Shown: positions 16,379 to 57,901 of the stretch, in pieces | Position numbering within the stretch: position 1 is the first letter of the stretch | Layout of the letters: each line of letters begins with the position of its first letter | DNA from: Diphasiastrum complanatum | Lineage: Eukaryota > Streptophyta > Lycopodiopsida > Lycopodiales > Lycopodiaceae | Direction of reading: 5' to 3' | NCBI GenBank assembly: GCA_029204225.1 | Contig: CM055094.1 | Span: 13,260,422-13,324,421 of the forward strand | DNA length: 64,000 bases | The notes under the pieces: model-generated | Seen by the model: the letters and a program-made list of their open reading frames with translations, nothing else | Told to the model about the DNA's origin: nothing | Databases searched by the model: none | Translations under genes and position numbers: made by a program

Positions 16379-16498
16379 ATGGAGAAACAAGAACAATACG
16401 CTCTCCCACAAGTGCGACTTGCTTTGGCTTTGGCTCTTTCGAAGGCTCGAGGGACTAAATCAAGCGACGCTGCCATCGTCTCTGCTCTGGAAGCCAAG
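16379..16498 (+). CDS. PRD2: PRD2-like exon 1
   Basis: The ATG at 16379 is chosen because it puts the LALALA motif about 13 residues from the start, as in MEI4, and because the frame has a TAG (16339-16341) upstream. Donor GTGACT at 16499, phase 0. Confidence 0.55.

Positions 16499-57901: not shown

Follow-up and report, generated by a model that had tools for sequence, protein, structure and literature searches.

A probable PRD2/MPS1 gene of about nine short coding exons spread across 41.5 kb in Diphasiastrum complanatum

The window analyzed here is a 64,000-nucleotide stretch of contig CM055094.1 of Diphasiastrum complanatum (assembly GCA_029204225.1; positions 13,260,422 to 13,324,421), and all coordinates below are those of the window. 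Between positions 16379 and 57901, on the plus strand, nine exons and eight introns join into an open frame of 356 residues. Every one of the introns is bounded by GT and AG; the exons, 58–239 bp in length, add up to 1071 of the 41523 bp spanned, and introns 1 to 8 measure 10498, 90, 9519, 214, 8566, 4009, 7449, and 107 bp, respectively. Exon 1 (16379–16498) and exon 9 (57663–57901) were set by eye from the sequence. The seven exons between them were sought by dynamic programming, constrained to a total of 1071 bp, to five long introns of previously stated length taken in order (each ±60 bp), and to two short introns. Two of the 205 end states came to 1071 bp, with splice scores of 42.8 bits (the chain chosen) and 27.5 bits; tighter splice thresholds yielded no chain, and looser thresholds recovered it. 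The recovered chain agrees in every figure with a prior reading made from the sequence only, which had proposed nine exons of 58–239 bp, eight GT-AG introns, and a 356-residue frame, with long introns of 10.5, 9.5, 8.6, 4.0, and 7.4 kb (here introns 1, 3, 5, 6, and 7). The exons and long introns of the model are as follows.

16379–16498, plus strand: exon 1, 120 bp; start codon, residues 1–40, and the LALALA helix (SSM1-like)
16499–26996, plus strand: intron 1, 10498 bp; a minus-strand Ty3-type remnant with gag, protease, and RT (18570–21503)
26997–27054, plus strand: exon 2, 58 bp; coiled-coil-like stretch
27145–27291, plus strand: exon 3, 147 bp; the weakest exon, skippable in phase, placed by its open frame and GT-AG borders
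27292–36810, plus strand: intron 3, 9519 bp; copia-type gag, pre-integrase, and integrase fragments within 29982–34707
36811–36875, plus strand: exon 4, 65 bp; the BLAST-aligned region begins here
37090–37147, plus strand: exon 5, 58 bp; needed to bring exons 4 and 6 into phase, with weak support, and situated within the BLAST alignment
37148–45713, plus strand: intron 5, 8566 bp
45714–45830, plus strand: exon 6, 117 bp
45831–49839, plus strand: intron 6, 4009 bp; a (CT)n array about 116 units long (48726–48958)
49840–50035, plus strand: exon 7, 196 bp; the PFIGQR ... DPF core, the best-conserved part
50036–57484, plus strand: intron 7, 7449 bp; a minus-strand gag fragment of copia type (53682–54371)
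57485–57555, plus strand: exon 8, 71 bp; the alignment to Arabidopsis PRD2 is gap-free across junction 7/8
57663–57901, plus strand: exon 9, 239 bp; C-terminus and stop codon

Immediately before the stop codon of exon 9 stands a weak GT donor (score −2.3), and given this donor an additional exon may lie beyond exon 9.

That such a chain would be unlikely by chance had been argued in the sequence-only reading from phase and splice sites, and this argument failed. We searched for chains of seven internal exons between exons 1 and 9 with intron lengths left free, disregarding total length and any stop codon split between two exons. The best such chain scored 61.4 in the real region and 49.9–65.7 in five first-order Markov surrogates, and all five surrogates exceeded the modeled chain's splice score of 42.8. 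Moreover, the openness of the frame is partly built in, as the exons were selected as open. With all five surrogate chains scoring better, the frame and splice-site argument against chance was rejected; the model is set apart from chance by similarity to a known protein, not by phase.

That protein is Arabidopsis PRD2/MPS1 (AtPRD2; AT5G57880, F4KDF5), the single PRD2 relative compared, whose sequence we took from a table in PMC9957857. In a one-sequence BLASTP search, the product matched AtPRD2 with 67.8 bits (E = 5e-17; 55 identities and 107 positives over 220 positions), the alignment running from residue 109 to residue 328 of 356, starting where exon 3 meets exon 4 and ending within exon 9. 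Three Arabidopsis break-machinery proteins from the same table, DFO, PHS1, and MTOPVIB, served as BLASTP controls and gave chance matches only (best E 0.98). The local alignment score against AtPRD2 was 195, a value reached by none of 2000 shuffles (mean 36.9, maximum 83). When AtPRD2 was searched by tblastn against the bare window, without the gene model, one significant match was returned, in exon 7 (49875–49997, E = 3.4e-6), with the next at E = 0.93. The proposed likeness of the C-terminal half to plant PRD2/MPS1 is thus borne out, and similarity is significant over most of the protein, residues 60–108 (exon 3) being the unsupported part.

A spliced protein-to-DNA aligner was run with AtPRD2 as the query under 15 settings, eight on the unmasked window and seven with repeats and transposable element (TE) frames masked. 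One unmasked setting, which recovered only exons 7–9 of the model, scored 208.3, against 103.6 on the reverse strand, with three control proteins reaching 79.5–96.8 and the best of 20 shuffled AtPRD2 sequences 104.6; another scored 253.6 against 125.9, with at most 140.5 in four shuffles. With masking, a first setting gave 187.7 (69.5 on the reverse strand, 62.5–89.1 for three control proteins, at most 103.0 in 20 shuffled AtPRD2 sequences), and a second gave 240.3 (90.0 on the reverse strand, 102.4–123.2 for control proteins, at most 131.7 in 20 shuffles). That no gene is present at all, and that the model is a chance chain of open segments, would fit the in-phase chains that arose above 42.8 in every surrogate; with a similarity to AtPRD2 that spans five junctions, a score that none of 2000 shuffles equals, and spliced-alignment scores about twice those of the controls, we regard it as scarcely credible.

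The product and AtPRD2 are alike in length (356 and 377 residues), in a collinear alignment with the PFIGQR and DPF core, and in a helix rich in Leu and Ala at the N-terminus, after which comes a charged coiled-coil-like stretch. The differences between them lie in an identity of 25%, in the Arg-rich middle of AtPRD2, part of which has no counterpart here, and in the C-terminus, longer by 11 residues in the alignment. As expected of a plant gene, no relative turned up among 497 pattern matches in prokaryote genomes or 356 in viral contigs when these were scanned with the alignment as a guide.

Support differed from exon to exon. Each internal exon was scored against its collinear AtPRD2 segment, along with 3000 rival candidates, similar to it in length and phase, sampled from the two strands. 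The candidates that matched or beat the true exon numbered none for exon 7, four for exon 2, 18 for exon 8, 19 for exon 4, 191 for exon 5, 721 for exon 6, and 1969 for exon 3. For the terminal exons, shuffles equaled the score in 69 of 3000 cases (exon 1, against AtPRD2 1–60) and in 0 of 3000 (exon 9). The spliced aligner recovered junctions 7/8 and 8/9 (the exon 7 donor, both ends of exon 8, and the exon 9 acceptor) in all 15 settings. Among the other donors, that of exon 6 was recovered in 10 settings, exon 4 in nine, exon 1 in five, exon 2 in three (exon 2 was once aligned to a different part of AtPRD2), and exon 5 in one, while exon 3 was recovered in none of the 15. On unmasked DNA, (GA)n arrays mimicking the Arg-rich part of AtPRD2 attracted the aligner; after masking, the donors of exons 4 and 6 were found in seven of seven settings and that of exon 1 in three, with exons 3 and 5 found in none.

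Three acceptors varied among settings. In the nine settings that recovered the exon 4 donor, its acceptor was placed at 36811 three times and at 36799, 12 bp upstream and in phase, six times; in the 10 that recovered the exon 6 donor, the acceptor was 45714 once, 45769 eight times, and 45781 once. The exon 7 acceptor, across all 15 settings, was 49840 in four, 49803 in 10, and 49852 in one, and frame arithmetic makes 49803 incompatible with exon 6 as modeled. The aligner's alternative acceptors bring extra mini-exons, which we took for noise. We regard exons 7–9 as solid, apart from the acceptor of exon 7, and exons 1, 2, 4, and 6 as likely, although by homology alone exon 6 has little support. 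Exons 3 and 5 owe their place to phase and splice sites, homology lending them almost no support, and there is uncertainty over where exons 4, 6, and 7 begin.

It follows that a PRD2 gene may be present and the middle of the nine-exon model nonetheless wrong, whether in exon 3, in exon 5, in an acceptor of exon 4, 6, or 7, or through a small exon that is missing. This alternative is compatible with the main reading rather than exclusive of it, and we give it a little less than an even chance. The many candidates that score as well as exons 3 and 5, the aligner's near or complete failure to find those two exons, and its preference for other acceptors all point in this direction, as do the rank of exon 3 by splice score among same-phase candidates (18th of 258) and two 12-residue stretches of AtPRD2, located between its matches to exons 2 and 4, for which the product has no equivalent. 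The same ranking, however, favors the other internal exons, with exons 2, 4, 5, 6, 7, and 8 placed at 3/160, 1/204, 3/74, 1/94, 1/86, and 2/55, respectively, and the modeled chain needs no mini-exons, whereas the aligner's alternatives do.

At the N-terminus of the product, LALALA occupies residues 14–19, within RLALALAL at 13–20, in agreement with the motif previously placed 13 residues from the start. When residues 1–70 were aligned with AtPRD2 1–85, three of 5000 shuffles reached the score. An equal number (three of 5000) did so against an animal MEI4 N-terminus, a sequence that itself scores 106.3 bits with Pfam Mei4. The proposed MEI4-like character of the N-terminus is upheld by these shuffle tests; a match to the MEI4 family profile is not. 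A Pfam search of the full product returned no family at E ≤ 10, Mei4 (PF13971) included, and Mei4 went undetected in the N-terminal 69 residues, which did not reach the curated cut-off of 25 bits. The profile fails for AtPRD2 too (E = 0.061, 13.2 bits against the same cut-off of 25). The product thus resembles animal MEI4 in having a LALALA helix near its N-terminus and differs in being missed by PF13971. Searches of the PDB with the product, AtPRD2, and an MEI4 N-terminus gave nothing useful.

The N-terminus of yeast Mei4, comprising SSM1 and SSM2, is described as forming a 1:2 complex with Rec114 C-termini, both of which embrace its first helix, and AlphaFold2 models of the A. thaliana counterparts look alike to the yeast complex (PMC10393192); in mouse, MEI4 1–127 binds REC114 203–254 (PMC6288613). 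The product has an N-terminal helix rich in hydrophobic residues at the position described for SSM1 (PMC10393192), and from its sequence we infer that the RLALALAL stretch corresponds to SSM1. SSM2 opens with a tryptophan called "nearly invariant", and so not absolute, in the same source (PMC10393192). This residue appears to be lost here: Trp54 of AtPRD2 aligns with Leu37, which adjoins a gap where the alignment is not firm. One could propose from these features both that this seedless-plant PRD2 has an altered REC114-binding module (SSM2 tryptophan lost, SSM1–SSM2 spacing shortened), with a PHS1–PRD2 assembly in its lineage unlike those of Arabidopsis and of MEI4, and that its 41-kb TE-loaded unit limits the onset of meiotic breaks through the time taken by splicing or transcription; we consider this combined proposal a long shot.

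The missing tryptophan, the 25% identity to AtPRD2, and the TE remnants in the introns might also be expected of a decaying or silenced PRD2 copy, a pseudogene swollen by transposons, with the working gene elsewhere. We think this quite improbable, as exons 7–9, which were placed by homology and not by openness, are free of stops over 506 bp before the final stop, eight of eight introns have GT-AG borders, and low conservation is described as general for PRD2 (PMC9957857).

Transposon content was mapped with Pfam on 10 of the 23 long open frames, and among the long introns the content of introns 1, 3, 6, and 7 was described. Within that scope, the claim that the long introns carry transposons holds for introns 1, 3, and 7, in which TE fragments were found. 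Intron 3 also contains an LTR-like pair of direct repeats (32775–33484 and 35561–36284) that are 93–94% identical in pieces; the pair flanks copia-type integrase frames and ends about 0.5 kb before exon 4, and is apparently part of a shortened element. Perfect long CT/GA dinucleotide arrays lie at 48726–48958, 58906–59028, and 26671–26750, and the (GA)n array that precedes exon 2 resembles coding sequence rich in Arg and Glu, which led the protein-guided aligner astray. One dispersed repeat is present in two copies, about 91% identical in two pieces, at 12405–12707, upstream of the gene, and at 52160–52458, in intron 7.

Outside the gene, the segment 13339–14152 has two sets of inverted-repeat arms (13526–13660 with 13827–13961, 94% complementarity; 13339–13439 with 14052–14152, 79%), is open in several frames, and looks like a non-autonomous inverted-repeat element. 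Farther upstream, at 3643–5022, a 459-codon open frame encodes a reverse transcriptase domain (Pfam RVT_1, E = 2.3e-18) and is perhaps of LINE type. Downstream of the gene, 59591–59782 is a tandem pair of a 99-bp unit with 83% matches. No Rfam family reached its gathering score within the window.

The introns here are far longer than the Arabidopsis average of 152 bp given in PMC9477723. In the fern Ceratopteris richardii, the same source describes a mean intron of 5,555 bp, 17,745 introns longer than 10 kb, and 706 genes longer than 100 kb, and attributes this growth to TE insertion into introns (PMC9477723). Since Ceratopteris introns, as described there, are comparably long and TE filled, the architecture of the locus is ordinary by analogy, as long TE-filled introns would be in plants with very large genomes.

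Taken together, we put the probability at about 0.9 that this is a PRD2/MPS1 gene, the plant equivalent of MEI4, whose coding sequence is divided among about nine short exons over some 41.5 kb by transposon-bearing introns of 4–10.5 kb, its function being judged from relatives. The locus has an open spliced frame, collinear similarity to AtPRD2 over exons 4–9, and a similar N-terminal helix, and the gene is probably functional. It is an ordinary new member of the known PRD2/MEI4 family, to which rice OsPRD2 (LOC_Os08g44180), described as essential for meiotic breaks, also belongs (PMC9880466). Of the Viridiplantae lineages analyzed in the homology survey of PMC9957857, Chlorophyta alone lacked PRD2, which the same source describes as weakly conserved in general.

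The transcript would be spliced in meiocytes to yield a protein of about 356 residues, and two REC114/PHS1 C-termini would clasp its N-terminal LALALA helix. Together with PHS1, DFO, and other break proteins, the product would support double-strand break formation by SPO11-1/SPO11-2/MTOPVIB, an RMM-like complex with PHS1 and DFO providing the setting for SPO11-dependent meiotic breaks. We propose this role because of the similarity to PRD2 and of published work on the function and partners of PRD2 in plants (PMC11511760, PMC9880466). A spindle role has been described for PRD2 in Arabidopsis but was not observed in rice (PMC9880466); because of this we assign none to the present gene. The long introns would reflect passive growth by transposon insertion and would have no part in function.

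The locus carries a lesson for gene finding in transposon-rich DNA, where an open, in-phase chain of exons alone proves no gene; similarity to one known relative is telling evidence where the open chain is not. The gene is otherwise ordinary, as both land-plant PRD2 and giant TE-filled introns were already known, and its value lies in a working exon map for a meiotic gene that evolves fast and, in a plant genome rich in transposons, may be easy to overlook.
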